Shown here: in pieces, positions 13,873 through 63,264 of the stretch
Layout of the letters: each line of letters starts with the position of its first letter
Position numbering within the stretch: the first letter of the stretch is position 1
Assembly (NCBI RefSeq): GCF_964019385.1
Contig: NC_088650.1
Span: forward strand, 33,541,675 to 33,605,674
DNA: 64,000 nucleotides
DNA from: Sycon ciliatum
Lineage: Eukaryota > Porifera > Calcarea > Leucosolenida > Sycettidae
Direction of reading: 5' to 3'
Made by a program: the position numbers and the translations under genes
Notes under the pieces: model-generated
The model's database searches: none
Told to the model about the DNA's origin: nothing
The model's input: the letters and a program-made list of their open reading frames with translations, nothing else

Positions 13873-13971
13873 GGTGTAGATATTGCAGCAAAGTATCTAT
13901 TCTAGCAGCTTGACATTTCAAGTGTATGCTGAAACCATACAAGACAGTGGAAGAACATCTTCTCAACTCAC

Positions 13972-16673
13972 CTCAGCTCTGACAAATGGCACATCCTTAC
14001 GCAGCCAGGGCCAGAAGGACCTCGGGATAATGACCTTCTCCTTGCAGGTAGCACACGTAGCCTTGAAGGTCAGGGCGGTGTTCCCATCCGACTCGTATGC
14101 CGTCAAGAAATGCTTCTTGTGCAAGCTGGTCAGCAACACCCATGACGAGTGTACCAGCACCTCTGCAGGACTGCTGCATTCCTTCAGGCGATCCTGGCAT
14201 GATGCGGAAGTGCAGACAAATGATTCACCAACAACTGTGAACTGCTGGTACCCTTGGCGGCTGAGAACTTGTGTGAAGTCAACAATTGCACTCTTCATAT
14301 CCCAAGCCACATCAGCAAGTATGGATGGTGTATCAGCAGCGCATTCTAAGCGAACACCTGTCGGTGTCCAGCAGAGGCATACTTGACTACAACCAACCTC
14401 CAAATTCAGTGATGCCGCACTGGATGTGAACTGAAGACTGGCTGACTCTTTCTTCATACGATGAATTATGTAGGTGACTAAGCGACCGAACAGTGGTGGA
14501 GGAAACAGCATCCCAGGGAAACTGAGGTGGTTAAACGGTAGCTTAAAGGGAACATCATCCTCCAAAACCAACCGTAATGCTTCCTGGTTGCAACAGAACG
14601 GGATGAAGAGGTCGGGTAGGCCTGGCGTGACAACCGGACATCTGTCTTGTCTGCTGCTGCTGTTGCTGCTACCGCCGACTCTACTGCCACACCCTCCAGT
14701 GCTGGTGGCTGTACTGCTGGTGGCTGTACTGCTGGTGGCTGTCCTGCTCTTGACTCTACTGCTGGTGGCTGTCCTGCTGGTGGCTGTACTGCTGGTGGCT
14801 ACACTGCTGATGGCTGCACTGCTGGAGGCTGTACTGCTGGTGGCTGCACTGCTGGTGGCTGTACTGCTGGTGGCTGTACTGCTGGTGGCTGCATTGCTGG
14901 CGGGCTGAAGTTCTGCTGCTAGGTTGAAGTAACACATGGATTTGCAGAGAGCTAGCTGGACAACACGGCTGAGAGGATACCAAACATTCTCTATCAACCT
15001 AGCGCTGGCAATTCCCGTACATCGAAAGTGTTGCACATCTCTGACTAATGTTGCTGAGGTGCTTAGAAAAGCTGTCTCCTTCAGAGGGAAGGTCATCAAG
15101 CGTACAAAGTAGAGCAATAGCTGCTGGGGTTCCAGGAAAATGACACTTGAAGTGAGTGGATGCGGGCAGTCACAGCAAAACACTGTGCCATGTTGCTGAA
15201 GGTGGTGCAGTAGATCAGACACTTGTGCAGTGGTGAGATCTTTGCCGCTAACATGCCGACAAAAGTCTACAAACTGTGGGTAGTCCATACTAACAAAACT
15301 CTGCTGCTGCCGATGCTGCTGCTGCTGCTGATCACTACTGGTAGCTTGCATTGCATCATCACTGCACCCAGCCTTTGCATAGCGAAGCATTTCCTTTTGG
15401 TGAAGAGAAATAGCTTCTTCTATCTTCACCTGCATCAAGGGAATTCCTTGGACAGGAAAGGCAGACACAATTCTAGAGAGCTCTTGCTGTGCTTCAGCAA
15501 GCTGGCTGTGGCGAGATACGCGATCTTGAAGACGGTGATTGTCAACAAAGAAGGGTCCACAGACCTTGACGTTGGGTCCGGCCCTTTCAGCCAGCTTGGA
15601 TACGGCATTGAAGAACATGTTCTTCTTCTTCTCTATTTGGTCGTCATCGACAAGATCCACATGTGTAACAACAACCATGATGGCTGTGCTACTCTCATCA
15701 TGATGGTGGCTGCTATTGCTGCTACTGGTCTTACCCGGCTCTGTGTCTGACTGATGCTGATGCTGCTGATGTTGGTGCTGCTGCTGTTGCTGCTGCGGCT
15801 GTTGCGGCTGCTGCTGTTGCTGCTGTTGCTGCTGCTGGTGGTGATGCTGGTCAGGGTGTGTGTCTGCTCTATGCTGCAAAGCAATCAGTGACAGACACAT
15901 GTGAAGGTAGTCAGCCTGCGTCATTCCTGGCAACGGTGTAGAAGTTACAATCTCCTGACCATCGAAGCGGTAGACGTCTTCCGTTACCTCCTCATCCAGG
16001 TCACACCTCATGTCAAGAGTCACAATGTACACGCTGTCACAAATTGAAAACGAGATGCTTTGTTGTACCAACATTGGCATCTGTCCACCCATGTCCCACA
16101 GCTCAACAAACGCATATGCTGCTTCCGCTTCATTTGAACTGTTATCGACATTGCTGACAGATGAGCGAACTTGAGAGATAACATCTGGTGCCACTTTGGT
16201 CAGGTCATTAGCATGGGGAACATTGGCAAACTCATTGTTGACAGCGGATGCAGCAGATGCTCTGGTGCCGGTAGCGGAGGCAGTCGATGACGAAGTGAGT
16301 CGTGAAGTGAACAGTGTCTTGGCTTTGGACAAGATTGATTCTTGCGGACGTTTCTTGATTTTCTGGACCAGATCTACAGATGATCGGATGCGAGCTGTGA
16401 GTAGATTGACAAAGAAACTATGTTGACTGTCATCCACAAGAACTTGTGCTGCCTCTTGCGTGCCTGTGGCGGTCTGAGAGGAGAGATGCATTCTGAGTCT
16501 GGATCGATGGATGGAAATGGAGTCGGTGCTGTCCGCGTTTTCAATGAACTCTTCACCGAGCAGTGCCCGGACAAAGCTGGACTTTCCCGTGGCGTACTTG
16601 CCGACAAGGTACATACGCACGCGTACCACGCTGGCCTCGTCCTTACCACCAATGATGTCCTCAGCGACAGCAG
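13972..16673 (-). CDS. Roco-family GTPase, large Roc-COR exon
   Basis: A 2.7-kb exon of about 900 codons. It starts after ATGCAG at 16673 (entering with two bases of a split codon) and ends at GAG before GTGAGT (13972, phase 0). Roc GTPase motifs are in order: P-loop VGKYATGKSSF (near 16600), G3 ELWDMGGQ (near 16090) and G4 VVTHVDLVD (near 15650). A COR-like winged-helix segment follows: MDYPQFVDFCRHVSGKDL, then GTVFCCDCPHP and FLEPQQLLLYFVRLM (15280-15090). Roco proteins are dimeric GTPases in which COR couples the nucleotide state to partner domains; the partner here (kinase, death domain or other) lies outside this exon. A polyglutamine/histidine insert (15760-15850) sits between G3 and G4. 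A degenerate S-T-A-T-S repeat (14680-14905) interrupts the COR region. N-terminal and C-terminal exons are not identified. Confidence 0.9.
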
Positions 16674-16830
16674 CTGCATTGCAATAAACAATAATAATGC
16701 AGCAGCAGCAGTAGCAGCACGAAGAGCAGCAACAGCAGTAGCAGCAACAATCATTAGTACATGTTATCATGGGAAATGGTAGAATGCCTCAAGTACAACA
16801 GAGTTTACCAGTCACAAAAGCAATTGAGAG

Positions 16831-49240: not shown

Positions 49241-49667
49241 TCTAATGGAACGCTCTTGCTGACCAGGCGCCATGCGGTCTGCGAGGGCCGGAAGTAGGTG
49301 CTCGCTGATGCATGCTTCCAGTGGGGAAAAGCTATCCGCAGTGTTGGGCACGGCTCGGTCTAGGAACGACCATTTGTGGCGCAGTCCATGCGTGAAGGCC
49401 GCATACGCTGCTTGTGGCTACGTCATGGCAAATGTGGTTAGGGTCTGGACTTCCTGGCACCACTGGGCAACTTTGTCATCTGTTTTATGCCTGGCAGAAG
49501 GCAGGAGTGCCTAATGCTGCACCAAGGTGTCGGTCGCCATCCGTCTTCACTATAATGTAGGTGTCGCCAAAGAGCTCCTGGGTCTGCGTAGCGTGATCCT
49601 GCTTCACTAGGAGAACGGTTTTCCTAGCGTTCGGGAAGTATTCATACGAAGGGTCATGGGGTGCGAG

Positions 49668-50160
49668 GGCCCCGGGACCCCCCAGAGTTTGACCTTTGAC
49701 CCCTGGCATGCCATAAATGTCATCCTTAAGGTTCTTTTCGCCATAGATGGCGAACGTGCACTTGTGCACGTTCGGTGCATTCGCACCGGGGAGTAGTAAA
49801 ATACGTACTATCCCCTGATTTGCACATCGTAGATGTACATTGCATGCAGTGACATATTGCGCATGCGTGCATACGCACGCGGAGCGTGTGACCTTCAGTG
49901 GTCCTATGCGTGTGGAAAAGACGCAGTGCAACACAAGGTGTACTAGTACACGTGTCATTATACTACTCCCTGATTCGCACTTCGTAGATTTGCAGCAAAC
50001 AAAGTTCACGTTCTGTGCATTCGTTTTATTCGCACATCGTCGATGTGCACTGATTGACAAGTTGCCCATGCAGAGCATGCCTAATCGGCTTTTCGATCGG
50101 TTAAGAGAATGTTCAAATTCGGCCATATTATGAGCCCCAAGATCAGAATTCGGCTCAACA
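49668..50160 (+). repeat. Large element, left TIR, outer part
   Basis: Identical (by eye) to the inverse of 62861-62453 and 60211-60128. Contains a 24-bp palindrome CGAACGTGCAC-TT-GTGCACGTTCG (49751-49774) and three related motifs GCACATCGTAGATGT (49822), GCACTTCGTAGATTTGC (49977) and the palindrome GCACATCGTCGATGTGC (50032). A DR1 motif GGGTCAAAGGTCA lies on minus at 49702-49690. Confidence 0.9.
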
Positions 50161-50663
50161 TTTAGAAAAGCGATCCTGTCAGCTTTTCTATTATTGTGTT
50201 CACATGGCAAGAAAAACGACACCGCTATGCTACGTAAGTTTCTACGTAAGGTGCTCGGTATTTCACTTAGGCTACGTAAGTCTCTACGTAAGGTGCTCGG
50301 TATTAGATCTACCAACGGGTGGTAGCCGCGTGCTGTGCACGTGCCCGGCAGACATTGTGTTGCAGTGCATGCAGTCCGTGTTTGGATGTGCATGCGCGAG
50401 GAACTAATAATGAATTTATATTACTTTCTCCTTTGGAACTGCTTCTTGTATGAGCTGTTTCGGATATTTCGTCTCCTGGCCTGGCTTATTTCGTTTCGGC
50501 GCTGCTGAGACCTCCTTTCGCGGAATATTACTCAATGACAGGTGAGTTGACCAGTTCCCTTTGATTCATTTGCTTGTGCTGACTCTTTCATTTACGAAAA
50601 GTGTGCTGATTTTGGGCGGAATGCAATAAATAATGGAAAAGCTGACAGGATCTCTTTTCTAAA
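50161..50663. mobile_element. MITE, TTTAGAAAAG ends
   Basis: Left TTTAGAAAAGCGATCCTGTC and, inverted, right TTTAGAAAAGAGATCCTGTC; pairing goes on through AGCTTTTC. Confidence 0.75.
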
Positions 50664-51310
50664 TTTAGCTTTTCCGCTGCCGAGGCCTCCTTTTACGGAA
50701 TACTCGATGACAGGTGATCTCTGAGTTGACCGGTTTCCTTCGATTCATTTGCTTATGCTCACCCTTTCATTTACGGAAACGTGTGCTGATTTTATTCGGA
50801 TTTAGATCCATTTTTATCTCTTTGCCCTTGTCTACAGTGTGCGAAGAACGCGAGTTCACCTTCTTGACGATAAGGCTTATGTTAAATGTGTTGTCGAAAT
50901 ACTCATATTCATTGTACATTGGTACATTACAAGTAAGGCACTGGTCAGTGGCATACTATCGTTGGCAGTTCCCAATCTGGAGGGAAAGGTTCAAGGACCC
51001 ATTGACCGAGTTTGCAAAATAAATTCGCATATCAGGGAAAATCTCCATTGTGGAGAGGTTCAGTAAACTTGTTTGCTTCATACGAAACAAGCCAATGGGT
51101 GCAGTCTCGTCTCGTGAAGATCTCGTACTTGTATGATTGGATTTGTTTCCTCGAGTCTGGGCTGTTTGATTTATTATTTGTGAGTACCACCGAGATTGCA
51201 CTGCCCCAAATAAAGTTTCGTGCCGCCAAAGCAAGAATGTGCTGTACATGTATCGTACTTTCTCTGTTGCTGTTTCAGTTGCCGTCATGTTGCTAAAGAA
51301 GCGTTCAGTA

Positions 51311-51588
51311 GAGAGGTTCTGCAAAACGAAAATTCGAACGAAGTTTCGCGACAGTCTTTGCGAAAGTGTGTACGGATTTTTGCACGAACGTTGCGTTCTG
51401 CACATTTTCGTAGTTTGCGCGGGCCAAGTGCACGTACGCCATGACCCGATCTCACGAAAGTGTGTACGACTGTTCATTTCGTGTTCCCTGCAAGTTTCGC
51501 GTCCAGAGTTGCGAAAGTTCGTGCGAAGTTTCGCACTTCATGACGTGGAACGAAAGTTTGTACGCATTTTCGTTTTGCAGAACCTCTC
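51311..51588. mobile_element. MITE, GAGAGGTTCTGCAAAACG ends, TA duplication
   Basis: GAGAGGTTCTGCAAAACGAA and its inverse at the right, TA at 51309-51310 and 51589-51590. The interior has several 'cgaaagt' and 'gttcgtgcgaa' motifs. Confidence 0.8.
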
Positions 51589-52339
51589 TAGTGACTCTTT
51601 ATTTTGTTTCATACGAGACGAGTCAATGAGTTGGTGTGGCTTAGAATCTTTCGCTGTAGAAGAAATCTATTCATATGTCTATTGGAGAAATAATTGTATT
51701 CACTGGTTATAAAATAGGTTAAGACAAACTCACAGAAGAAATACCATCGGTCCCTTGGTGTTCGTCCTAAAGAGGTTCGACTGGATATCATTCACACTCA
51801 CCAGAAGATGTGTAAGATTTTATTATTATGGAGTGCCTTGTTTATCTCTCAGTACCTCCAACCATAGCCTTGCCCCTTTTATCCTCAGGATCAGTGTAGT
51901 TGTTGGAATGAGGTGTTGGACTCAACAATGTATTTGTTTACATTTTAATACATGTTTATTGTTCCTCCTCTGCTGTGTTGTTTTAGAAAATCGTGGACTA
52001 ACAGTTTGAAGTCATTGAACTACTTCCAAAAGTTGTATCGACATCAACAGGATTACGATTTCAGTGCAATATGATGCAGGATGACCTTATCACGATAACC
52101 CATGATTATAAACCATTATAAACACAGAATCAACAAAAACATCTGCGACACGCACCTGGTTACATTTCACAAATAAATCTGATCGAGGGTGGGGAAATCT
52201 GAAATATCTGAAAGGCAAGACAATTTTATGACAGAGTCATGAAATTCTGCTACAGCAACATGCACAGAATGACCTCTGTATAAAAAAAAAAGTATCACCA
52301 CGGTCCACCACTACTCACATGTTTCCCCGCAGAAGAACA

Positions 52340-52592
52340 TTATTATTATTATTATTATTATTTTATTTATTTTACTAGGGTGTTTCCCACAGACCTATGG
52401 TCTTCTTACGGGAGCCCCTAGAAAGGTTAAGCATGAACGAACAAATGGGCGATATTCTGTACAAGAGCGAACAGTGGAAGGCAGCATATTCCACCGATCA
52501 GAACCTATGTAGCCAAGACGAGAAAAACCAGCTTTAGTGTGGGCATGCATTATGCTAGTGCCATTTTCTGCAAGAAAAGGCTTGCACATCAA
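52340..52592 (-). mobile_element. LINE 3' fragment with (AAT)n tail
   Basis: Minus-strand coding end HAHTKAGFSRLGYIGSDRWN, MLPSTVRSCTEYRPF to a stop near 52395. Then hairpin AGACC-TAT-GGTCT (52391-52403), GTGGGAAACACCC and an (AAT)n tail (52343-52371). Confidence 0.75.
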
Positions 52593-52701
52593 TGCGTATA
52601 ATACGGTATTGATACGATGTGAAGGCCATCATTTACATATTGATATACAAGTTGTAGGGCATTCCATTGATATGATTGGTGACAGAAAAAACAAAAGAAA
52701 T

Positions 52702-53107
52702 TATAGCAATAAAAACTGCTTTATGGCAGTTTTCTAAAAAACGTTATTGTGTTCTAGTCCATGGACCCCGTCTAAAAAGTAAGAAATTAACGAAATGTGA
52801 TAGCTGAAAATTAAAATTTCACACAAAACCTCACAATAATCACACACAGAATGAAAAGCTACATGAAGAAGACCTTTTAACCTCGTGATCCTCTTTCCTA
52901 TGCATGCATGTTGCCAATTGTTGTTGCACTACGAGTTTAGTGTTGAAAGCAGCATTTCAAGTGTTGTGATTATTGTGAGGTTTTGTGTGAAATTTGAATT
53001 TTCAGCTATCACATTTCGTTAATTTCTTACTTTTTAGACGGGGTCCATGGACTAGAACACAATAACGTTTTTTAGAAAACTGCCATAAAGCAGTTTTTAT
53101 TGCTATA
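52702..53107. mobile_element. MITE with ~145-bp near-perfect arms
   Basis: Left arm 52702-52848 (TATAGCAATAAAAACTGC...) and right arm 52966-53107 are inverse copies almost without mismatch. About 117 nt between them. Confidence 0.88.
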
Positions 53108-53266
53108 ATAGTACTTGAAGTCACCGTTCCCATTACGTCATGTACATTTACATACACCCTGTAGAAGCACTGAAACATCGGTTTTCGGCGAATTCAACAT
53201 GCGAATTTTTGAACATTCGGCGAAAAGATGGGTAATTTCTTCAAAACCACTGTTTTCGGTGAATTT
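53108..53266 (+). repeat. Large element, left TIR, inner part
   Basis: From 'agtacttgaagtcaccg' to 'tcggtgaattt', identical to the inverse of 60127-59970. After GAATTT the two arms diverge, which marks the inner TIR border. Confidence 0.9.
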
Positions 53267-53653
53267 TTCGCCCGGCCGATTAGGGAAATGCCTACTATCC
53301 ATGCAGGTACATTAGATGCATATTTCTATTTTGATCGGAATTCAGTTAGAATCAACCGGCTACGCCCGGAGTATCATGCATCAAAACAATTATTGAAGGG
53401 GTGTCACAGTGAAGCAGTGTTGCTACGCACCACAAATCCCCTCTGCCCTGCACCGAATTTATACTGGAGAATCCAGAGTGACCAGCAAAGAGTCACAACC
53501 CGCGGGTATCCAGTCACACTAAGGCATGTCCACCATTCCCCACATATTCACTGTAACAAAACACAATACTGTTTACTATAATACACTTTTATTTAAATGG
53601 ACTTGGATGAGTCTGTAGAAGAGAACACAATGCACGCACACGCACGCATGCGC

Positions 53654-53702
<49 letters not shown>

Positions 53703-54119
53703 TCTAGGTTATAGTGCTATACACGTATCTAGGGTTTAGGAAGCACGAGAATGTGTCGAAGCACCCGCACATACCCCTTCATGCAGTGTACTTCAGTAGC
53801 CCAACACATTACGACCGCTCAGGACCATCACAAAACACATTACGACTGCACTGTTACTACACTACACACACAGTTACTACACTACGCCTGTTACAAGTAC
53901 TTACAAATAATTTTGAAAACAAATGGCACATCCCGAAGACGGCAGCTAGCTCCAGACCTTCATACATACATCATCATCATCTGTAAAACCAAGCATGAGC
54001 GCACACAAACACTATTAGTGTCACGAATACGGAAGCAGGGTAAGACAAGAGGATACGAAACAAGTAAGTATCGCTATAACGAGGGGGATACGTATACATG
54101 TAGACAGAGCAGTGCTTAC
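53267..54119. other. Interior left part of the large element, no gene supported
   Basis: One frame (53228-53581) begins inside the TIR and has no recognisable domain. A (CA)n microsatellite lies at 53639-53702. Rest non-coding. Confidence 0.4.
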
Positions 54120-54264
54120 TTACAGGGTCCTGATACGCTCCATGGCGTCCCGGTAGTCGGACTGCAACAGCAGCCCGACCTGCCGGCCCTCCCAGTAACG
54201 GGCTCGATGGGCCGCACCCGCCAGGTGTGCGGCCACGGCTTGGCCTCCCACCAGCCTTTCTCCA
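54120..54264 (-). CDS. Double zinc-finger protein, exon 2
   Basis: Acceptor CGTTTTTACAG. The first base completes a Cys codon with exon 1. The joined sequence reads CDTCGERLVGGQAVAAHLAG then AAH, a canonical C-x2-C-x12-H-x5-H finger that exists only after splicing. Continues QVGLLLQSDYRDAMERIRTL to TAA at 54122-54120. Total protein 85 aa. Confidence 0.7.
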
Positions 54265-54349
54265 CTGTAAAAACGAAAGAAACCGCAGAAAGCACAGTGT
54301 CATAGAGCTCTTTTGTTGGGGGAGAGAGCTAGGAGCACTGCACACTTAC

Positions 54350-54462
54350 CAAGTATCACAATATATGATAAGAAAGAGGCGGCGCTTGACGCACCGCCTC
54401 AGGTGCTGAAACAGGGGTATTACCCCTGTAAGGCGAACACCGCAATGACACGTGAACGTCAT
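54350..54462 (-). CDS. Double zinc-finger protein, exon 1
   Basis: ATG at 54462, MTFTCHCGVRLTGVIPLFQH then LRRCVKRR: a C-x-C-x12-H-x3-C finger. Its CG-x-RL-x-G...HL pattern repeats in the second finger, so the gene arose from an internal duplication. Ends GATACTTG before GTAAGT (phase 2). The intron is 85 bp. Probably a small DNA- or RNA-binding protein; no family recognised. It diverges from the RING gene with a 276-bp shared upstream region. Confidence 0.7.
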
Positions 54463-54738
54463 TTCTACAGACTGTTTTTCAGGATAATGATACTGAAGTG
54501 AAGGTGTGAACCGCAAAGCAAGACCTTTACCTTCTTCCTGTCGAATCCGCTACCCAGCTGCATACCGACATCACCCGCTAAAACCCAATCATACCAAGTA
54601 ACGCAAAGGTCATCAGTTGACCTTTTGGACTTTTCAACTCTTATCCAAAACCACCAAGAGGAAAAAACCAGGATGAAGAAGACGTCAGTTGTAGAAGCGT
54701 TTGTGGAGGAGTTGTTACATTATTCTCAGTAAATAGAT
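54463..54738. promoter_or_regulatory. Divergent intergenic region with AGGTCA inverted repeat
   Basis: Separates the two divergent genes. Contains AGGTCA-TCAGT-TGACCT (54607-54623), a perfect inverted repeat of nuclear-receptor half-sites with 5-bp spacing, and a short upstream frame on plus (ATG near 54673, 19 codons) ending before the RING gene. No TATA box seen. Function is inference. Confidence 0.4.
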
Positions 54739-55791
54739 ATGGCTGATACATTCGGTGTAGACGTGGACGACCGGTCGTGGTCTCTCACCACGGGTCCTTT
54801 ACTAATAGAAAGGCGGACGCCAATAAGAACTGTTGTGGAGTTGGCAGATCAAAACGCGCAGCAAGAAATTTGGCACGTCGATGGTAGACTCCATCGGGAG
54901 GACGGACCAGCTCTTGTTGATAGTAGGGGAGTGTCCGCCTGGTGCTATGGAGGTCGCCTTCATCGCGTCAATGAACCTGCTTGGATAGGACGGGGTAGCA
55001 TAGAGTACTACCTCAACGGCGCCCGTCATAGAGCCGGCGGTCCTGCAGTCAGTTATTATGACGCCACATGCGGTATTCTACGGTGGTATCACCACGGAAG
55101 ACTCCACAGGTATGATGGCCCTGCAGTGGAAACATTTTCAGACCTTGGTGAAGACTCTGAGGGGTTCTACCGACACCGCGAAGAGTGGTATTGGAATGGC
55201 GTCAGACAAAGGATCGGCGACGGCCCTGCTCTGACGGAGAGATTTGATGGCGCCTATTTGCTGGAAGCCTGGTATGTCCAAGGGCGTCTACACAGAGTAG
55301 ACGGACCAGCCAGGATCACTCGGAGTGATGATGGTATCACCATCCAGTGGTATTATCACGACCGGCTCCACAGGGAGAATGCGCCAGCCGTGATACGCAG
55401 GGAAGGTAACAACCGTGTACGGGAGTGGTACCGATACAACCTTCGGCATAGGGAAGATGGGCCTGCTTTCATCTCTCAGGAGGAGGAGGGTATCTATCAG
55501 TGGTACCTCAACGGGGTGTATTACGGTGACCACCATCAAGACCAGGCAATACACCCCATGGAGCTGCAGTACATCAATGTAGTGCCTACTAAGGTAGACT
55601 CGTCAGCAATAAGTCATGAGTCCATTTGTGTGATTTGTCAGGATACCCTGGACCGTCCTCTATCCAAGTTGGAGTGTGGTCATGAATTTCACTTCCACTG
55701 TATCAAGGAGTGGATCAGTTCTGCCCCCAGCCCAACTTGCCCAACCTGCCGCTACTCCATGACTGCTGAGGACTTGGTTGAGTTCTTGTAG
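54739..55791 (+). CDS. RING-H2 protein with nine WYxxGxLHRxDGPA repeats
   Basis: 350 aa, intronless. From about residue 40 to 270, nine repeats of ~30 residues: EIWHVDGRLHREDGPAL, AWCYGGRLHRVNEPAWI, RWYHHGRLHRYDGPAVE, AWYVQGRLHRVDGPARI, EWYRYNLRHREDGPAFI and others. They resemble the MORN-like repeats frequent in large DNA viruses of protists and in some phages. The C-terminus (297-338) is a RING-H2 finger: CVICQDTL, LECGHEFHFHCIKEW, CPTCR, all eight ligands present. RING-H2 proteins are usually E3 ubiquitin ligases, so the repeats may choose the substrate (inference). The frame is free of lesions and lies between the TIRs. Confidence 0.85.
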   Translation: MADTFGVDVDDRSWSLTTGPLLIERRTPIRTVVELADQNAQQEIWHVDGRLHREDGPALVDSRGVSAWCYGGRLHRVNEPAWIGRGSIEYYLNGARHRAGGPAVSYYDATCGILRWYHHGRLHRYDGPAVETFSDLGEDSEGFYRHREEWYWNGVRQRIGDGPALTERFDGAYLLEAWYVQGRLHRVDGPARITRSDDGITIQWYYHDRLHRENAPAVIRREGNNRVREWYRYNLRHREDGPAFISQEEEGIYQWYLNGVYYGDHHQDQAIHPMELQYINVVPTKVDSSAISHESICVICQDTLDRPLSKLECGHEFHFHCIKEWISSAPSPTCPTCRYSMTAEDLVEFL

Positions 55792-55877
55792 TAATACATC
55801 ACACAGTTGCATGTAGGCGACTACGAATGACCAGTCATGTGCTACAGACGGACACGGACATGCCACCCTAAGTAGCC

Positions 55878-56102
55878 ATGAGCGGCTATTTGGACAAGGG
55901 CAACAAAGCACCCCGTGGGCAGCCAAGGTTGACACTAGCCACAAGTCTGGTCGCTCAGTTGAATAAGCTGGGTGTGCCCATGAAGACCATGGAAGACCTT
56001 TCCAGGTGTCGGCAACAAGCAGAGGACAAGACAGACTGGAAGAAACTGTGCAGCTCGACACTCGAGGACAAATCAGTATCGGCAGCTACTACACCTTGCT
56101 GA
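55878..56102 (+). CDS. Short ORF like the extreme C-terminus of a LINE RT
   Basis: 74 codons: APRGQPRLTLATSLVAQLNK, LGVPMKTMEDLSRCRQQAED then KTDWKKLC. The pattern RG-x-P...L...GV......A.D...W recalls the terminal segment of some non-LTR reverse transcriptases (RGRP...DL...G....A.DR..W). No RT core nearby. Either a captured fragment or an unrelated small gene. Confidence 0.4.
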   Translation: MSGYLDKGNKAPRGQPRLTLATSLVAQLNKLGVPMKTMEDLSRCRQQAEDKTDWKKLCSSTLEDKSVSAATTPC

Positions 56103-56257
56103 TGATGCTCACAAGACAGAAGTGGGAAAAACACTGAATTTCTTTATTTAATGCTCAACTACACGAAATGTGTTATTATTATTATACATATTCAACTGTA
56201 CTCAGTCTGGCTGACTGCCATTCTCTACCACACATTACCGGACACTGTTGTGGGTGT

Positions 56258-57252
56258 TGTCGTTATCGTCGTCGTTGTTGATGTTGTTGTTGTTGGTTGT
56301 TGTCGTCGTTATCGTCGTCGTTGCTGATTTTGTTGTTGGCTGTTGTTCTCGGTTGTTGTCGGTTGTTGTCGTCGTTTGTTGTTGGATGTTGCTGGTTATT
56401 GTTGGTTGTTGTTGGTTGTTGTTGGGTGTTGTTGTTGGTTGTTGTTGGCTGTTGTCGGTTGTTGTCAGGTGTTGTTGGTTGTTGTTGGTTGTTGTTGTTG
56501 TCGGTTGTTGTCGGTTGTTGGGTGTTGTTGTCGGTTGTTGGGTGTTCTCAGTTGGTTGGTGTTGGTTGTTGTTGGTTGTTGTCGGTTGTTGTCCGTTGTT
56601 GTCGGCTGTTGCTGGTTGTTGTTGGTTGTTGTTGTTGGCTGTTGTTGGTTGTTGTTGGATGTTGTTGTCGGTTGTTGTCGGTTGCTAGTTGTTGGTTGTA
56701 GTTGGTTGTTGTCGGTTGTTGTTGGTTGTTGTCGGTTGTTTTCGGCTGTTGTCGGTTGTTGTTGTTTATTGTTGGCTGTTGTTGGTTGTTGTTGGGTGTT
56801 GTTTGGTATTGTTGTCGGTTGTTGCCGGTTGTTGTTTGCTGTTGTTGGTTGTTGTTGCCGGTTGTTGTCGGTTGTTGGGTGTTGTTGTCGGTTGTTGGGT
56901 GTTGTTGTTGGTTGGTGTTGGTTGTTGTTGGTTGTTGTTGGTTGTTGTCCGTTGTTGTCGGTTGTTGTTGGTTGTTGTTGGTTGTTGTTGGCTGTTGTTG
57001 GTTGTTGTTGGTTGTTGTTGTCGGCTGTTGTCGGTTGTTGGTTGTTGTTGTTGGTTGTTGTTGGCTGTAGTTGGTTGTTATCGGTTGTTGTTGGTTGTTG
57101 GATGTTGTTGTCGGTTGTTGTCGGTTGTTGTTGGTTGTTGTTGGTTGTTGTTGGTTGTTGTTGGCTGTTGTTGGCTGTTGTTGGTTGTTGTCGGTTGTTG
57201 TCGGTTGTTGGGTGTTGTTGTTGGTTGTTGTCGGTTGTTGTCGGTTATTGTG
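56258..57252. repeat. GTTG-rich minisatellite, ~1 kb
   Basis: Units of GGTTGTTGTC/GGTTGTTGTT in irregular higher order. All plus frames stay open (poly-VVGCCWLL), an artefact of the composition. Strand asymmetry is extreme: almost no A or C on plus. Confidence 0.95.
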
Positions 57253-57409
57253 TTTTAATCATTATTTTGTTCATTATCCAGGAGGATGTTGCTATGATCC
57301 AATACTATTTTTTCGCATATATGAGACAAGTTTGTGTAGCGTTAGTGTGACGTGGGGTATGCTGATTGGATGTGAGGTGGTGAGAGTATGCTGATTGACC
57401 GATAACAAT

Positions 57410-57503
57410 TAGTGGAAGGGATAAAGTAATGCACTGCTTGTGCAGCGTAACCAAACACATGGTCTGTGGGAAACACCTTAGTAAAATAAATAAAATAATA
57501 ATA
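57410..57503 (+). mobile_element. LINE 3' tail fragment with (AAT)n
   Basis: 'catggtctgtgggaaacacctta' followed by GTAAAATAAATAAAATAATAATAA matches the 3' end of the LINE fragment at 52340-52592 (inverse). Only the last ~90 bp are present. Confidence 0.65.
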
Positions 57504-57643
57504 ACATGAATTGCCACCGGCACTTGAGAGACTCGAGCCTCGCCGCCTTGTTCAAATCGGACTTGGTAGCTTCGTACTGGAACTTAATCTTCTTCTTTTT
57601 GAGGTATGACCGTACAAAACGCGCTTGGATTTTTTCATTTATT

Positions 57644-58015
57644 TTATTTTATTTTTTTCATTGCAACATTTTTAGCAGATGTCCACTCGTGAAACAAAGG
57701 TGAATCTGGAACGAATAAATGGTCCATGTCAAAGGCATGACGAGTCTCGAAGTCTTCACATTCACGATGGAACCTTGTCATGATTGACGCATTCCTTGAT
57801 GGTGCGCACATGAAATCACCCTGGCTCATCTTTTCCAACTCCATTCTTTTCACATCCTGCAACCCATACCCTACTAGTATCAGTGGGGACGCTAGAATCA
57901 GAAGAGGCAAGGCAGCACTCTTCCGTGGATGTATTACTCGACACAACACCACCCATACTTGTTTTCTAGAAGTTTTGACTATAATGATATATTGCAGCAG
58001 GAAGTAGTATACAGT
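57644..58015 (-). CDS. Possible small membrane protein
   Basis: Open minus frame without an ATG before the hydrophobic part. Two hydrophobic stretches are visible (YYFLLQYIIIV and ALPLLILASPLILVGYG), then a charged tail (MELEKMSQGDFMCAPS... to KKIK). It follows the 58082-58852 gene on the same strand within ~65 bp. The start is unclear, so it may be a second exon or not a gene. No family recognised. Confidence 0.35.
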   Translation of the reverse strand, partial: TVYYFLLQYIIIVKTSRKQVWVVLCRVIHPRKSAALPLLILASPLILVGYGLQDVKRMELEKMSQGDFMCAPSRNASIMTRFHRECEDFETRHAFDMDHLFVPDSPLFHEWTSAKNVAMKKIK

Positions 58016-58081
58016 CAAATAGGATAGGATAAGAATGAATGATCAACTGTCTGATAAAGAATGCAGTTCATTTAAAAAGAC

Positions 58082-58852
58082 TTATTGGAAGGTCTCTACC
58101 AGCTGATCGTCATGTTGGACGGCGACACTGCATAATGATATGAAGCTCTCAGTTAGCTGTTTCAGTTCCGTGGTAGAAAGTGTCATGTGTGCGTCCAAAG
58201 AACGATGAAAACATCTGGGGTCCACGTTAATGCAGACGATTGGAGCAACAGCAAGACGTACCTTCAACGCTTGCTCGTCAATGTCGAGGGAGACTGCCCC
58301 GGGGTAGATGAAAACATCTTGTTCCACATCCAGTTCGAACCAGCTGGTCGGGACTAGCTTGCTTTCACCGTTGATGTACACCCGACATTGACCGTAGGAC
58401 GAACATGATGGGTAGAAGTTGGTCTTGATCTTCTCCACACGTCCTCTTCGGAGAGTGTCACGGAGCGATGGACAAGTCTTGATCAAGTTCGTAATGATGA
58501 ACTCAGTGGACTCATTCAGTTCGATGTAAACCTGTCCTTGAGCATCTTTGCGAGCTGTTGCCGTACTACCACAGGCTGGTAGAGCTCCTGAAGGGAAGTA
58601 CATCTTATAACCAGGCTTGTAGAAGGATCTACCTGATGACTTGTAGGACAGTTGCATGTCCTCCTGAAACCCATCTACCACAATCTCTTTGTGGAGCTTG
58701 GTAGGAGCAGGTGACACATAGCGACGCTTAGCCGGTACTGCCTTCGAAGAGAGCACAACTTGAGGAGGGTCAGCAGGAAGAGCGGAATTCTTCCTCTCCC
58801 GCCGCTCGTATAGGTTATCCATCTTCCAGGAAGCGAAGGGAGAACAACTCAT
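58082..58852 (-). CDS. Unrecognised 256-aa protein of the large element
   Basis: ATG at 58852 (MSCSPFASWKMDNLYER; a second ATG at 58822) to TAA at 58084-58082, no lesion. The frame is open up to 58912, but a TATA box at 58909-58902 would place transcription start below the upstream ATG. Visible parts: KAVPAKRRYVSPAPTKLH, QLSYKSSGRSFYKPGYKMYF, INLIKTCPSL-type helices (FIITNLIKTCPSLRDTL), a cysteine pair (YPSCSSYGQCRVYINGES) and YPGAVSLDIDEQALKVRLAV. Mixed alpha/beta, no signal peptide or membrane span. I do not recognise the family. It lies between the possible membrane ORF and the TFIIB-like gene, all on minus. Confidence 0.65.
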   Translation of the reverse strand: MSCSPFASWKMDNLYERRERKNSALPADPPQVVLSSKAVPAKRRYVSPAPTKLHKEIVVDGFQEDMQLSYKSSGRSFYKPGYKMYFPSGALPACGSTATARKDAQGQVYIELNESTEFIITNLIKTCPSLRDTLRRGRVEKIKTNFYPSCSSYGQCRVYINGESKLVPTSWFELDVEQDVFIYPGAVSLDIDEQALKVRLAVAPIVCINVDPRCFHRSLDAHMTLSTTELKQLTESFISLCSVAVQHDDQLVETFQ

Positions 58853-58901
58853 CAGCACTGTATTCGATGAACGAATGACTCGACTACAGGACAACCACCC
58901 G

Positions 58902-58909
58902 TATTTATA
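58902..58909 (-). promoter_or_regulatory. TATA box of the 256-aa gene
   Basis: TATAAATA on minus, about 50 bp before the ATG at 58852. Confidence 0.6.
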
Positions 58910-58954
58910 CAAGGCAGAGACGGAGGCGGGTTGAAGTGATAAAATATGTGTCAG

Positions 58955-59100
58955 CTAGGTCAACCAATCACCATCAAGCCCGCCAAAAACATTTGACCAC
59001 TCAGCATTGAGCCCACCAAAAACATTTGACCAACCAGCATCAAACCCGCCAAAAGCATTTTGTCCAATCAGCGGCATGCCCACCAAAATCATATCTCATC
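58955..59100. repeat. Four ~37-bp repeats with CCAAT motifs upstream of the 256-aa gene
   Basis: Variants of 'ccaatcaccatcaagcccgcc' followed by 'aaaaacatttgacc' occur four times. The CCAATCA motif keeps its place in the first and last unit, and ACCAGCATC-like forms occur in between. They lie 50-190 bp upstream of the TATA box, so a repeated activator site is plausible. Confidence 0.6.
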
Positions 59101-59195
59101 TTAAAGATTCCTTACATGATACCGCCACTTTAGTGAACTGATACAGTATGGAAATAAGATCAGAGTCAAACGTGTGCAAGTTCTGAATCACGTGA

Positions 59196-59876
59196 TCAAG
59201 TGAATAGGTTTTCCCAACAATAGGCATCAATCAATGATACCATAAGAGATGTATCAGATGGAGATAAAATCAGCAAATTCGTACGCAACGTGGACAGTTG
59301 AGAAGAAGACACCATCCTGGTCGACTCCATGAGACGCAGTACATATAGGAGTGGAAAATGCTGAGGAAGAGGTTTCATGATTCGACTGAACCTCAACCAT
59401 GATACATTGCTACGAGGTAAGTAGGAACGCAGTTTACGTAGTACATCCACATTCGTATCGTATACTATGCAGGATAATGCTATAGCATAGTTTATACTCT
59501 TGTACAAACAGGATTTTTTCATCGCAAGTATCTGCTCCCGAAGAGTGTGTACGCAAAGCTGATCGGATAAGAGTTCAGTTTTCGAAAGAAAATGCAAAAG
59601 ATGACGATCCACACCGCTTAACCGCTCATGTACCGCGTAAGGCTTCTTCATCAAACTACATCTCCTATGCACATCATCTTCAGGGAAGTAAATCACCGCC
59701 ATGACAAGTCCACACGAAGAACACACGTATCTTCCTTCATGTAAAACATGATCAAGATGTTGACACTGTTTTTCCTCCCGGTATTGCTCTTCTTCTTCTT
59801 CTTCTTCTTCTTCATCCTTCTCATGAAGTCTCCTGTCACGTACATAAGCAGGTAAGATCTTAAATTCAGAATCCAT
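59196..59876 (-). CDS. TFIIB-like zinc-ribbon protein
   Basis: 226 aa from ATG 59876 (MDSEFKILPAYVRDRRLHEK), intronless. An acidic run (EEEEEEEEE) is followed by the zinc ribbon CQHLDHVLHEGRYVCSSCG (about residues 42-60), close to the TFIIB type (C-x-H...G-x-VC-x2-CG). After it comes a helical region, NYAIALSCIVYDTN then VLRKLRSYLPRSNVSWLRFS, spaced like a cyclin repeat of TFIIB (A.ALS......R.LR......S...I.R..K). Host TFIIB is ~316 aa with two cyclin repeats; this one has room for one or one and a half. Such factors direct RNA polymerase in many large DNA viruses. A TATA box lies upstream. No lesion. Confidence 0.6.
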   Translation of the reverse strand: MDSEFKILPAYVRDRRLHEKDEEEEEEEEEQYREEKQCQHLDHVLHEGRYVCSSCGLVMAVIYFPEDDVHRRCSLMKKPYAVHERLSGVDRHLLHFLSKTELLSDQLCVHTLREQILAMKKSCLYKSINYAIALSCIVYDTNVDVLRKLRSYLPRSNVSWLRFSRIMKPLPQHFPLLYVLRLMESTRMVSSSQLSTLRTNLLILSPSDTSLMVSLIDAYCWENLFT

Positions 59877-59930
59877 CTTCACTCCTCACCAACATCCTCA
59901 TTATGACACTATATCCAGCATGATATCTAC

Positions 59931-59938
59931 TTTATATA
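59931..59938 (-). promoter_or_regulatory. TATA box of the TFIIB-like gene
   Basis: TATATAAA on minus, about 55 bp before the ATG at 59876, the same spacing as for the neighbouring gene. Confidence 0.6.
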
Positions 59939-59969
59939 ACCAATCCTATCCAGGGCAATTATCAGGTAC

Positions 59970-60211
59970 AAATTCACCGAAAACAGTGGTTTTGAAGAAA
60001 TTACCCATCTTTTCGCCGAATGTTCAAAAATTCGCATGTTGAATTCGCCGAAAACCGATGTTTCAGTGCTTCTACAGGGTGTATGTAAATGTACATGACG
60101 TAATGGGAACGGTGACTTCAAGTACTATGTTGAGCCGAATTCTGATCTTGGGGCTCATAATATGGCCGAATTTGAACATTCTCTTAACCGATCGAAAAGC
60201 CGATTAGGCAT
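59970..60211 (-). repeat. Large element, right TIR, inner part
   Basis: Inverse of 53266-53108 joined directly to the inverse of 50160 down to about 50077. It shows the uninterrupted state of the left arm. Confidence 0.9.
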
Positions 60212-62452
60212 GTTGTTGTTGTTGTTGTTGTAGAAGTTTATTTAACGTCGCACCACAAACAGGCGATTTCGCCTCCTTTGATACATGTGGACGACAGAAG
60301 GAATGAGAGAGAGGGGGGGGGGGACAGAAGTATGGAGAGAGGAGGGTAGAAATAAATAAGCAATCAACCTCAGGGCTACACCAAAGCAAAAACGGAATGG
60401 GAACATACTATATACAAAATAGCTTCATACATATATTGCAAAACACGTTTACTATTCTTCAGTCCGCTATACCACAGAAACACACTAGCCGAAAAGCATT
60501 TAAACGGAGCCATGATGCGCTTTAAGCAGGGCACAGAACTGAAGGTGGCTGGGCTCGGAACGGAGATCAGGCGGGAGCTGGTTCCACAGGACTGCGCCGA
60601 TGAACTGCATGGTCGCTCGACCCGCAGGACCGGGCCAAAATGGTACTCGAACGAGGTGATGTGCTGCTCCCCGAGTGCGGTCACCAGTAACTCTCACGAA
60701 GAAGCTGGTGAAGAGGGAGCTAGCTCGGGAGAACAGACAACGACGGACAAAGATGAGGAGCTTAATGTTAAACATGTCCTCCAGGGTGGTGAGGCGGAGC
60801 TGTTCAAAGATCGGGCTCGTGCGCGACCACGGTGGCAGACCGAAGAAGCCGCGGATAGCGCACTTCGTTAGACGTGTGAGGGGCTCCATGTTGCCAATTT
60901 GAAGTGACGGATAAAAGGCGTTGGAAGCGTACGACAACCTACCCTGGATCATCGACCTGTAAAACAGGATCTTTGACGCCAGGGTGAGGCTTCGGCGGCT
61001 CCGCCACAGCGCACCTACTGACTTCCGCACCTGCTGGATTGTGTGATTGACGTGAGGCTCCCAGGAGAGCTGCCCATCTACTATTACGCCCAGGTACCGC
61101 GCTTGTTCCACAACTGCAAGGGCTGCATTCCCACAGCGAATTCGAATGTTATCTGTGTCAGGCGCTGGGCCTCTTGGGGTAATCAACAGAGCTTGCGTTT
61201 TCTTTTGGTTCAGCATTAGCCCGCGGTCCTCCAACCACTGCGACAGGCCAGTGATGGCTGTGCTTAGAGAAGAGCACACTTGTTCGCAACTGCCCGAGGC
61301 TTCAATTGCAATGTCGTCTGCAAATTCCTGGTTTGTGACCTGCTGGGGCAAGCAGCATCGAAGGTTACGGATGTATAGTGTGAACAGGAGGGGGCCGAGG
61401 ACGGATCCTTGCGGCACCCCTCGACTGCATGCGACGTATTCCGAGCAATTTCCGCCCACGACTACGCGTTGAAGCCGCTCACTCAGGTAACTAGTGAACC
61501 ATATCTGGACAGTACCGCCGACCCCAATGTCGGATAGCTCCTGTGCCAAGATGGTGTGTTTGACACAGTCGAAAGCCTTCGACATATCCACGAATATCAC
61601 ACCTGTGAGTTTGCGCTCATACTTCGCTTTCAGCCAGCGATTGACAGCTAGCACAAGAGCGTCCTCCGTACTGTGGTTCTTCCTGTACGCGAACTGCGAG
61701 TCAGGGAGAATACTGTGATCGGTCAGAAAGGATGTAAGCTGAGCTTTGACGATCTTCTCGAGGAGGCGAGAAACGACTGGTAGTAGAGAAATAGGTCGAT
61801 ACGCAGTAGGCTGACAAGGGTCAAGGCCGCCACCTTTGAATAGCGGCGACACATTAGCAATTTTAAACTGACGGGGAACACACCCCTGACATAACGAAGT
61901 ATTGAAAATGATGCTGAGCGAGGGAGCCAGTATTGATGCCGAGTTTCTAAGGACAATACCCGGCAAGTCATCATGTCCAGTTGCTTTTGACGCGTCAACG
62001 GACTGGAGAAGGGCCGTAATGTCCTCCGTCGAAACAGGCGCAAATTCCGTGAATGCTGGTGCTTCACGTTCGGCTGGTGCGTTGGCGCACAGCGCGTCTG
62101 GTCGTCCAGGGTCATGTACAACTTCGCCAAAAGTTCGGGAGAGGATTCCAACAGGTACTTGTGGTGGGCTTGAACTTTTCGCTCGTCCAGTCACCACGTT
62201 TATCGTATTCCAGAGCTTCCGTCCATCCTTTCCGGCCGACTGTAGGCGAGCTTGAAAATACTGATCCCTTAGCCTCCGATCTAGCTTGCGCGCGGCTGCG
62301 CGGAGAGTGCGGTGTTGCTCTCGCAGGCGGACATCGTTTGGAGAGCGTGAAAGAAGTCGGTGGGCCTTGTTTCGTTGACGCACAGCAGATACAAGTTCAG
62401 GACACAACCATGGGCAAGGTCGGCGCCTCGGCTTACGAGGAGGTTGTAAGGG
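60212..62452 (-). mobile_element. LINE inserted in the right TIR, intact RT, 5'-truncated
   Basis: Minus-strand CR1/L2-like element. 5' truncation falls at about 62452, before the RT domain. The 3' UTR has hairpin AGGCG-ATTT-CGCCT (60261-60274), TTAAATAAAC and a (CAA)n tail (60212-60232). The empty site is visible in the left arm (50070-50085, cagag|catgcc). No target duplication beyond 1-2 ambiguous bases. Confidence 0.92.
60500..62452 (-). CDS. LINE reverse transcriptase, open without lesions
   Basis: About 650 codons without stop. Motifs: DASKATGHDDLPGIVLRN, AYRPISLLPVVSRLLEK, KNHSTEDALVLAVNRWL, FVDMSKAFDCVKHTILA, GVPQGSVLGPLLFTLY, NQEFADDIAI (catalytic ADD), ARYLGVIVDGQLSWEPHV. The endonuclease is lost by 5' truncation and no start codon of its own remains; the frame runs by chance into TIR sequence upstream to 62689. 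An RT of this length without a stop suggests a very recent insertion. Confidence 0.88.
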   Translation of the reverse strand, partial: PLQPPRKPRRRPCPWLCPELVSAVRQRNKAHRLLSRSPNDVRLREQHRTLRAAARKLDRRLRDQYFQARLQSAGKDGRKLWNTINVVTGRAKSSSPPQVPVGILSRTFGEVVHDPGRPDALCANAPAEREAPAFTEFAPVSTEDITALLQSVDASKATGHDDLPGIVLRNSASILAPSLSIIFNTSLCQGCVPRQFKIANVSPLFKGGGLDPCQPTAYRPISLLPVVSRLLEKIVKAQLTSFLTDHSILPDSQFAYRKNHSTEDALVLAVNRWLKAKYERKLTGVIFVDMSKAFDCVKHTILAQELSDIGVGGTVQIWFTSYLSERLQRVVVGGNCSEYVACSRGVPQGSVLGPLLFTLYIRNLRCCLPQQVTNQEFADDIAIEASGSCEQVCSSLSTAITGLSQWLEDRGLMLNQKKTQALLITPRGPAPDTDNIRIRCGNAALAVVEQARYLGVIVDGQLSWEPHVNHTIQQVRKSVGALWRSRRSLTLASKILFYRSMIQGRLSYASNAFYPSLQIGNMEPLTRLTKCAIRGFFGLPPWSRTSPIFEQLRLTTLEDMFNIKLLIFVRRCLFSRASSLFTSFFVRVTGDRTRGAAHHLVRVPFWPGPAGRATMQFIGAVLWNQLPPDLRSEPSHLQFCALLKAHHGSV

Positions 62453-62861
62453 GCTCTGCATGGGCAACTTGTCAATCAGTGCACATCGACGATGTGCGAA
62501 TAAAACGAATGCACAGAACGTGAACTTTGTTTGCTGCAAATCTACGAAGTGCGAATCAGGGAGTAGTATAATGACACGTGTACTAGTACACCTTGTGTTG
62601 CACTGCGTCTTTTCCACACGCATAGGACCACTGAAGGTCACACGCTCCGCGTGCGTATGCACGCATGCGCAATATGTCACTGCATGCAATGTACATCTAC
62701 GATGTGCAAATCAGGGGATAGTACGTATTTTACTACTCCCCGGTGCGAATGCACCGAACGTGCACAAGTGCACGTTCGCCATCTATGGCGAAAAGAACCT
62801 TAAGGATGACATTTATGGCATGCCAGGGGTCAAAGGTCAAACTCTGGGGGGTCCCGGGGCC
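62453..62861 (-). repeat. Large element, right TIR, outer part
   Basis: Inverse of 49668 to about 50076, identical by eye across ~409 bp, including the 24-bp palindrome, the three GCACATCG motifs and the DR1 (62827-62839). Confidence 0.92.
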
Positions 62862-62889
62862 AGACCAAGCACGACCGACACAGTGTGCC

Positions 62890-63264
62890 TTATTTGGCCC
62901 AAAGGTCAAAGGTCAAAAAGTGGCCCAGAACCCGCCCCGCACTAACTACTTCCTTGAACGGCTGTTGACGGATCAGGTGAGGTGCTAGTATGGCGGCTTT
63001 GCTGCATAGCCCTTCGCCTGCAGCTGAGTCTCCAAAGCTCTTGAACAAGGAGCTGATGGTAGTAACAAATGAGGAATCCAGTTTGCCAAGCGGGATGGCA
63101 AAGAGGTTTGGTTGAAAGTGTACTGCTTTCTCATAAATTATGCTGTATTGACAGCCTGGACATGATACTAATACCCTACCTGGTGACTTCGGCTTCAGCT
63201 CTTCTCGACCTTTCCGCTCATCAAACAGAAACACGTCATGAAACATGTCATGGCATTGATGCAC
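62890..63264 (-). pseudogene. Retroelement N-terminal domain fragment, minus copy
   Basis: Reads LVSCPGCQYSIIYEKAVHFQ, NLFAIPLGKLDSSFVTTISS, LFKSFGDSAAGEGLCSKAAI. This is the N-terminal domain (PLGK....F......L...F......) found before the RT in a retroelement group common in marine invertebrates. It is homologous to the plus-strand copy next to it. No RT follows on minus; the large TIR element begins after it. Confidence 0.6.
62903..62915 (+). promoter_or_regulatory. Perfect DR1 (AGGTCAAAGGTCA) just outside the right TIR
   Basis: Consensus direct repeat of two AGGTCA half-sites with one base between, 42 bp from the TIR end. Binding by RXR/HNF4-type receptors is established for the motif; use here is unproven. 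Confidence 0.4.

Follow-up and report, generated by a model that had tools for sequence, protein, structure and literature searches.

A palindromic, gene-bearing family with Maverick-type ends, and its decayed member, in the genome of the sponge Sycon ciliatum

Protein priming is the inferred mode of replication of the virus-like Mavericks, also known as Polintons, and to our knowledge direct traces of protein-primed replication in genomes are scarce. Among the closest parallels are the defective inverted-duplication genomes of adenoviruses, in which protein-primed strand displacement yields palindromes carrying one end twice (a literature search yielded no paper on them), and the foldback transposons, with their long inverted arms and unstable centres. 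In vertebrate Mavericks, (AGT)2//(ACT)2 is the commonest end motif and insertion generates 6-bp target duplications (PMC8097293), and Polintons are 15-20 kb in length (PMC4046053). Transpovirons are linear elements of ~6-7 kb with terminal inverted repeats (TIRs) that are associated with a larger virus (PMC8877843 and PMC7031253). Here, we describe an element in a 64,000-nucleotide stretch of the Sycon ciliatum genome (assembly GCF_964019385.1, NC_088650.1, positions 33,541,675 to 33,605,674, forward strand; hereafter the window), for which an earlier note, made from the sequence alone, had proposed a virus-like element bounded by TIRs. This element is likely to be a decayed member of a palindromic, gene-bearing and non-autonomous family with Maverick ends, a satellite that would have arisen by snap-back synthesis and be moved by a helper.

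The left arm of the window copy was used as the query against all 313 contigs (538 Mb) of the genome; with 40 of 2,019 first-look candidates scored, this identified at least 41 matches, and the copy number is thus a lower bound. These comprise 14 opposed pairs whose members are separated by 11-22 kb, the arm of the window itself, a single short additional piece and 11 unpaired matches. Thirteen of the 14 opposed pairs were fetched (C names denote contigs and L names fetched loci), and every one is an inverted duplication of the whole interior, extending beyond the TIR, both arms starting at an AGTAGT terminus and converging on a shared axis. The best arm-to-arm alignment covers 5.5-7.6 kb in 12 copies and 3.2 kb plus further pieces in C13:3180; some of these alignments cross the axis, since pieces overlap there. 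The two arms share 99.2-99.95% identity in 11 of the copies, with lower values for C1 (98.9%) and C13:3180 (96.0%), and differ by both substitutions and gaps in every fetched copy. Relative to the window copy, the members share long internal blocks of ~87-95% identity and some shorter blocks of 96-100%. The expectation that a search with the TIR would yield longer relatives was thus borne out, but the 13 fetched relatives carry the same genes twice and gave no match to PolB, integrase or protease.

The axis is symmetric within a few bases in seven copies, the arms of C2, C12 and C11 both reaching the equivalent of window position 59971, those of C3 and both C5 copies reaching 59813, and those of C8 reaching 59813/59821 with an insertion. 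The remaining six centres are asymmetric (C9 and C77, 58871/59773; C13:3180, 57719/59651; C1, 58111/59821; C13:2987, 59971/59521; and C4, 59273/59289 with a single 59861-59971 piece in between). Complete arms carry genes for a MORN-like-repeat and RING-H2 protein (MORN-RING), a 256-aa protein and a TFIIB-like protein, some of which have been lost from the short arm of asymmetric copies; judged from the arm limits, 11 of 13 copies have the 256-aa gene within both arms. Exact palindromy extends for 61-76 bp on either side of the axis in C2, C3, both C5 copies and C8, and the 8-nt centre reads AACACGTC in C12 and its reverse complement in C11. At the centres of L023, L031 and L033, this 8-nt sequence is found in one or the other orientation, or in both together within exact palindromes, which is reminiscent of flip/flop hairpin processing. 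C9 and C77 share identical centre breakpoints (58871/59773) yet differ in their target duplications, which indicates that palindromes move as palindromes, including one with a damaged centre.

In the 12 copies of which both ends can be seen, the sequence always begins with AGTAGT[A/T]AGTGCGG and finishes with its complement (...ACTACT), and exact 6-bp target duplications flank every one of them; the 13th copy, C8:6692, is outside this count as its right end is cut off. Eleven different hexamers were found, ATCGTG being common to C1 and C12. On the basis of these target duplications, a plain inverted duplication within a normal host locus was rejected as an explanation. A terminal sequence of ~110 bp was also seen twice in tandem at L031/L032 (C12:17323) and at the right end of C11:9556 (L034). 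The element had been described as belonging to no known transposon class, a view that cannot be maintained given that the ends and the 6-bp duplications connect it to Mavericks/Polintons; the spans of 11-15 kb in 12 of the 13 copies are also near those of Polintons. Unlike Mavericks, the family is palindromic with doubled genes, carries the TFIIB-like, MORN-RING and 256-aa genes, and has no PolB, integrase or protease match in its copies. Transpovirons differ in being helicase-encoding episomes of giant viruses, and the accessible text of PMC8877843 describes no palindrome in them. The adenovirus case concerns defective virus genomes, whereas the present family is integrated and dispersed and carries its own genes. 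The titles and abstract openings retrieved in a literature search on Polintons and palindromes contained no palindromic Polinton.

The window copy departs from this plan through deletion and later insertion. Its left outer arm (49668-50161, plus strand) is truncated at 49668, where ~89 bp of terminal sequence has been lost, and the target duplication is therefore unreadable in this copy; a later insertion (50162-53107, no strand assigned) containing smaller inverted repeats separates it from the inner part of the left arm that has its mirror on the right (53108-53266, plus strand). The right side consists of the inner part of an arm remnant (59970-60212, minus strand), a second insertion (60213-62452, minus strand) with a reverse-transcriptase open reading frame (ORF), and the right outer arm (62453-62950, minus strand), which ends at 62950 in the true, Maverick-type terminus ...ACTACT. 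That ORF (60500-62623) matches PF00078 (1.2e-35), and its frame continues into the right arm. The identical inverted repeats of ~650 bp that had been noticed around compact genes were indeed recovered, each arm having later been interrupted: 49668-50161 plus 53108-53266 pairs with 59970-60212 plus 62453-62861 with 0 mismatches over 409 + 86 + 159 bp, and ~6.7 kb of compact genes lies between. These repeats had been taken as the plain boundary of the element, a role that does not hold. At the deletion junction (59969-59970, no strand assigned), the full long arm, which extends to its axis-proximal end at 59969, is fused directly to position 53266 of the mirrored arm, of which 652 bp remains. 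Because of this fusion, the window copy reads as a palindrome without the interior of one arm, lacking most of that arm and the left terminus, and the 652-bp "TIR" as a remnant of a giant inverted duplication. The suspicion of a mobile, virus-related element in a deletion form was thus well founded, as Maverick-type ends, multiple copies and a lost arm attest.

The closest sibling among the loci seen is L006 (C165:11837-12329), with 99.6-100% identity to the window copy in the arm and 99.1% in the adjoining interior. The left-arm insertion contains nested small elements, namely a foldback repeat at 52700-53109, whose 145-bp arms are 99% complementary and enclose a 120-bp loop, and a second, smaller inverted repeat (50160-50195/50629-50664). 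ORF pieces on the minus strand flank the element on both sides (window 49485-49667 and 62890-63246); a Pfam search of these gave no match, and they presumably resemble one kind of retroelement protein. The element may have inserted into a retroelement, with a deletion at its left side.

Of the five genes proposed for the interior, homologues support three, whereas the zinc-finger gene and the membrane ORF were unsupported. The MORN-RING gene (54739-55791, plus strand, 350 aa) has relatives at 99% (P0015) and 63% (P0016) identity and contains 264 nt in the window copy that are absent from the other 13 copies. Its RING-H2 domain scores above curated cut-offs (PF12678, 40 bits against 31; PF13639, 39.2 bits against 27.3), and the protein is probably a ubiquitin ligase. 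Among the 120 listed of 1,490 relatives, P0103 and P0126 also combine MORN-like repeats with a RING domain, and one MORN-repeat relative, P0055, is named as a protein from a bacterial metagenome-assembled genome. The one viral contig fetched with MORN-like repeats, L001, looks like a tailed-phage contig from its other ORFs, judged by reading without a family search. The repeats are thus a weaker sign of viral ancestry than had been supposed, and a giant-virus fragment argued from MORN repeats alone was rejected.

The 256-aa protein (58082-58852, minus strand) is open in 14 of 14 copies compared and gave no match in a Pfam search; its relative P0003 (EukProt scpid42763/scgid21042) is 98% identical over 68% of the query. 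In PMC6526912, scpid numbers designate sequences of Sycon ciliatum, in agreement with the origin of the window, and P0003 suggests transcription of the 256-aa gene. At a guess, this protein could bind nucleic acid. The TFIIB-like zinc-ribbon protein (59196-59876, minus strand, 226 aa) has a frame broken near its 3' end relative to P0007. At E <= 1, four of nine members of its family matched PF08271, the best of them (E 0.0056) falling short of the gathering score, hhalign against human TFIIB covered the ribbon alone (23 columns, probability 3.6, E 0.012), and the fold model has a pLDDT of 50. This factor probably acts in transcription of the elements. Profile searches of the three proteins thus yielded a RING-H2 domain above cut-off, a weak TFIIB ribbon and, for the 256-aa protein, no Pfam match. 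The 256-aa and TFIIB-like proteins are kept at 53-55% identity in P0005 and P0008, on JGI contigs of 1.2 and 1.4 kb, and P0001, P0007 and P0015 represent 32, 31 and 21 member sequences, respectively, which suggests a repeated element.

TATA boxes had been reported for these genes, and this stands for two of them: the only TATAWAWR boxes in the interior are TATAAATA (58902-58909, minus strand), 57 nt ahead of the ATG of the 256-aa ORF, and TATATAAA (59931-59938, minus strand), 62 nt ahead of that of the TFIIB-like ORF, and none precedes the MORN-RING gene within 200 nt. A 33-bp tandem repeat in 3.9 copies, with CCAAT in some units (58963-59092, minus strand), lies upstream of the 256-aa ORF. 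A possible two-exon zinc-finger gene (54119-54459, minus strand; exons ~54349-54459 and ~54119-54267) is unproven and was rejected as a firm gene as neither exon matched Pfam; its exons have pN/pS (non-synonymous to synonymous polymorphism) values of 0.25 (37 codons) and 1.79 (with a stop at codon 45 in 11 of 14 rows), respectively. An ORF at 56281-56688 was rejected as a membrane gene as it overlaps a GTTGTTG-rich tandem array (56277-57251, no strand assigned), and the other membrane-ORF candidate, 57644-58042, had no Pfam match. Elsewhere in the window, a 941-aa open frame with homopolymeric stretches (13963-16788) looks like a host GTPase-type gene, a reading made without a family search.

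Replication and integration genes were sought across the same genome with the PolB profile PF03175 (91 of 166 candidates scored, at least 52 matches), one Maverick integrase query (114 of 1,439 candidates scored, at least 114 matches) and the adenovirus-type protease profile PF00770 (20 of 20 candidates scored, one match). Neither the 13 fetched copies nor the window contain any of the 52 PolB matches, any of the 114 retroviral-type integrase matches or the sole protease match, in agreement with the earlier remark that no replication or integration gene was found in the element. PolB is accompanied at C5:18.93 Mb by an rve integrase (3.2e-9) and an adenovirus-type protease (1.5e-6). Integrases with 91-100% identity to this one are present at 12 loci, three of them with stops. 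On the evidence of these genes, Mavericks reside in the same genome. A further 102 integrase-like matches are 51-59% identical to the Maverick integrase and mostly form open frames of 499-506 aa; one of these (C9:33509265) is found upstream, ~31 kb away from the window.

A single family accounts for ten of the 12 PolB loci that were fetched; over most of their length, the nine compared with L041 share 97.8-99.6% identity with it. Within this family, L043-L046 retain integrase residues 43-339 (to the locus edge) and L039 and L040 residues 137-339 in two pieces, in each case without a TFIIB-like match in the fetched stretch, while all four of L041, L042, L047 and L048 retain residues 254-339 only, followed by a TFIIB-like gene (82% identical to P0011 and 46-47% to P0007). 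A palindrome at C1:6.02-6.04 Mb has L047 and L041 as its halves; in it, a 1178-aa PolB, the TFIIB-like gene and the axis are followed by the mirror image, the centre piece being 98.4% self-inverted; L048 is half of a palindrome at C3:2.88-2.89 Mb, with 99.0% identity at the centre and 100% over 601 bp in the outer pieces. This make-up suggests that the PolB palindromes derive from a Maverick broken within the integrase gene. They resemble the window family in being palindromic with a TFIIB-like gene near the axis, and differ from it in the presence of PolB and a truncated integrase and in the reversed TFIIB-like gene; tblastn of the 256-aa and MORN-RING proteins found no match in the fetched pieces of these palindromes. 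At L039/L040 (C2:9349260 and C2:9372360), two PolB genes of equal score lie 23 kb from each other and inverted relative to one another, each accompanied by a fragmented integrase; this is possibly a larger palindromic Maverick.

The explanation that we favour takes as its starting point the palindromy, ends, insertion scars, gene content and shared TFIIB-like gene read in these sequences, from which we infer the use of a helper and a snap-back origin. A helper Maverick would supply protein-primed PolB and integrase, and strand displacement by the helper PolB would release single strands. A displaced strand broken at mid-length would fold back and prime its own synthesis, and the product would be an inverted dimer with the same replication origin at both ends, capable of replicating and integrating through helper proteins. 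The likeness of the arms would be maintained by repair during hairpin passage in each cycle, or by gene conversion. Deletions at a fragile axis would create the asymmetric centres, of which the window copy would be an extreme, collapsed case.

Several observations weigh against this explanation. The TFIIB-like gene faces away from the axis in the window family and towards it in the PolB palindrome, and because of these opposite orientations the two palindromes are not simple versions of each other. The link between helper proteins and the AGTAGT ends is presumed, the fetched stretches of the PolB/integrase elements stopping short of their termini, and the 11 unpaired arm matches fall outside the sample of whole copies. 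The resemblance of the arms would also be accounted for by gene conversion between them, with no need for hairpins. The pN/pS values, computed from one arm of each of 14 copies and pooled over dependent pairs at low divergence, are a weak indication of selection on the genes: they are 0.55 for MORN-RING, 0.61 for the 256-aa gene and 0.75 for the TFIIB-like gene, but a frame interrupted in most copies (53751-54305) also reaches 0.54, and a frame that has no support (53228-53581) stays open in all 14 copies at 1.21; a further frame (55878-56102) gave 0.94. In nine of 13 other copies, moreover, the alignment of MORN-RING includes gaps whose length is not a multiple of three (the net frame was not computed). 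The conservation in P0005 and P0008 is a better argument than pN/pS that the 256-aa and TFIIB-like proteins matter.

A foldback-type DNA transposon, in which an unknown cut-and-paste transposase makes the 6-bp duplications and arms lengthened by unequal exchange are homogenised by conversion, is an alternative that we consider rather unlikely. Long inverted arms and unstable centres are what foldback elements typically display, and the 102 integrase-like matches described above could supply the mover; on the other hand, (AGT)2//(ACT)2 ends together with 6-bp duplications fit Mavericks, and the TFIIB-like gene is held in common with palindromes that carry PolB and a truncated Maverick integrase. 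An extension of the helper-dependent satellite, put forward here as a speculation of low probability, is that the two palindromes form a multipartite Maverick-derived virus or satellite system of the animal, in which hairpin-generated inverted-dimer segments, replicating, spreading and integrating as such, split replication (PolB and TFIIB-like) from accessory functions (256-aa, MORN-RING and TFIIB-like), and passage through single-stranded hairpins keeps the arm pairs alike. A distinct virus with a multipartite palindromic genome, composed of the same two segments and possibly more and integrated by the Maverick integrase, is improbable: two palindromes with different gene sets and a TFIIB-like gene near the axis of both, and homologues on contigs as short as those of P0005 and P0008, would be in keeping with it, but a capsid gene was recognised in neither palindrome (no capsid search was made) and scans of IMG/VR with the 256-aa and TFIIB-like proteins gave no relative. 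Finally, although palindromes are a known artefact of library preparation, inverted chimeras in the assembly are a scarcely credible source of this family, as in each of the 12 copies with visible ends a 6-bp duplication links ends whose flanks differ, where a chimera would mirror the flank, and the arms of every copy differ by substitutions and gaps.

If the helper-dependent, snap-back reading of this family is true, then the inverted dimers and the PolB palindromes would constitute a genomic record of snap-back replication in an animal, and the family would additionally record satellites parasitising Mavericks in an animal. The identity of the arms may date each copy and the centres may record hairpin processing, while the window copy illustrates that a TIR of 650 bp can be the relic of a palindrome.

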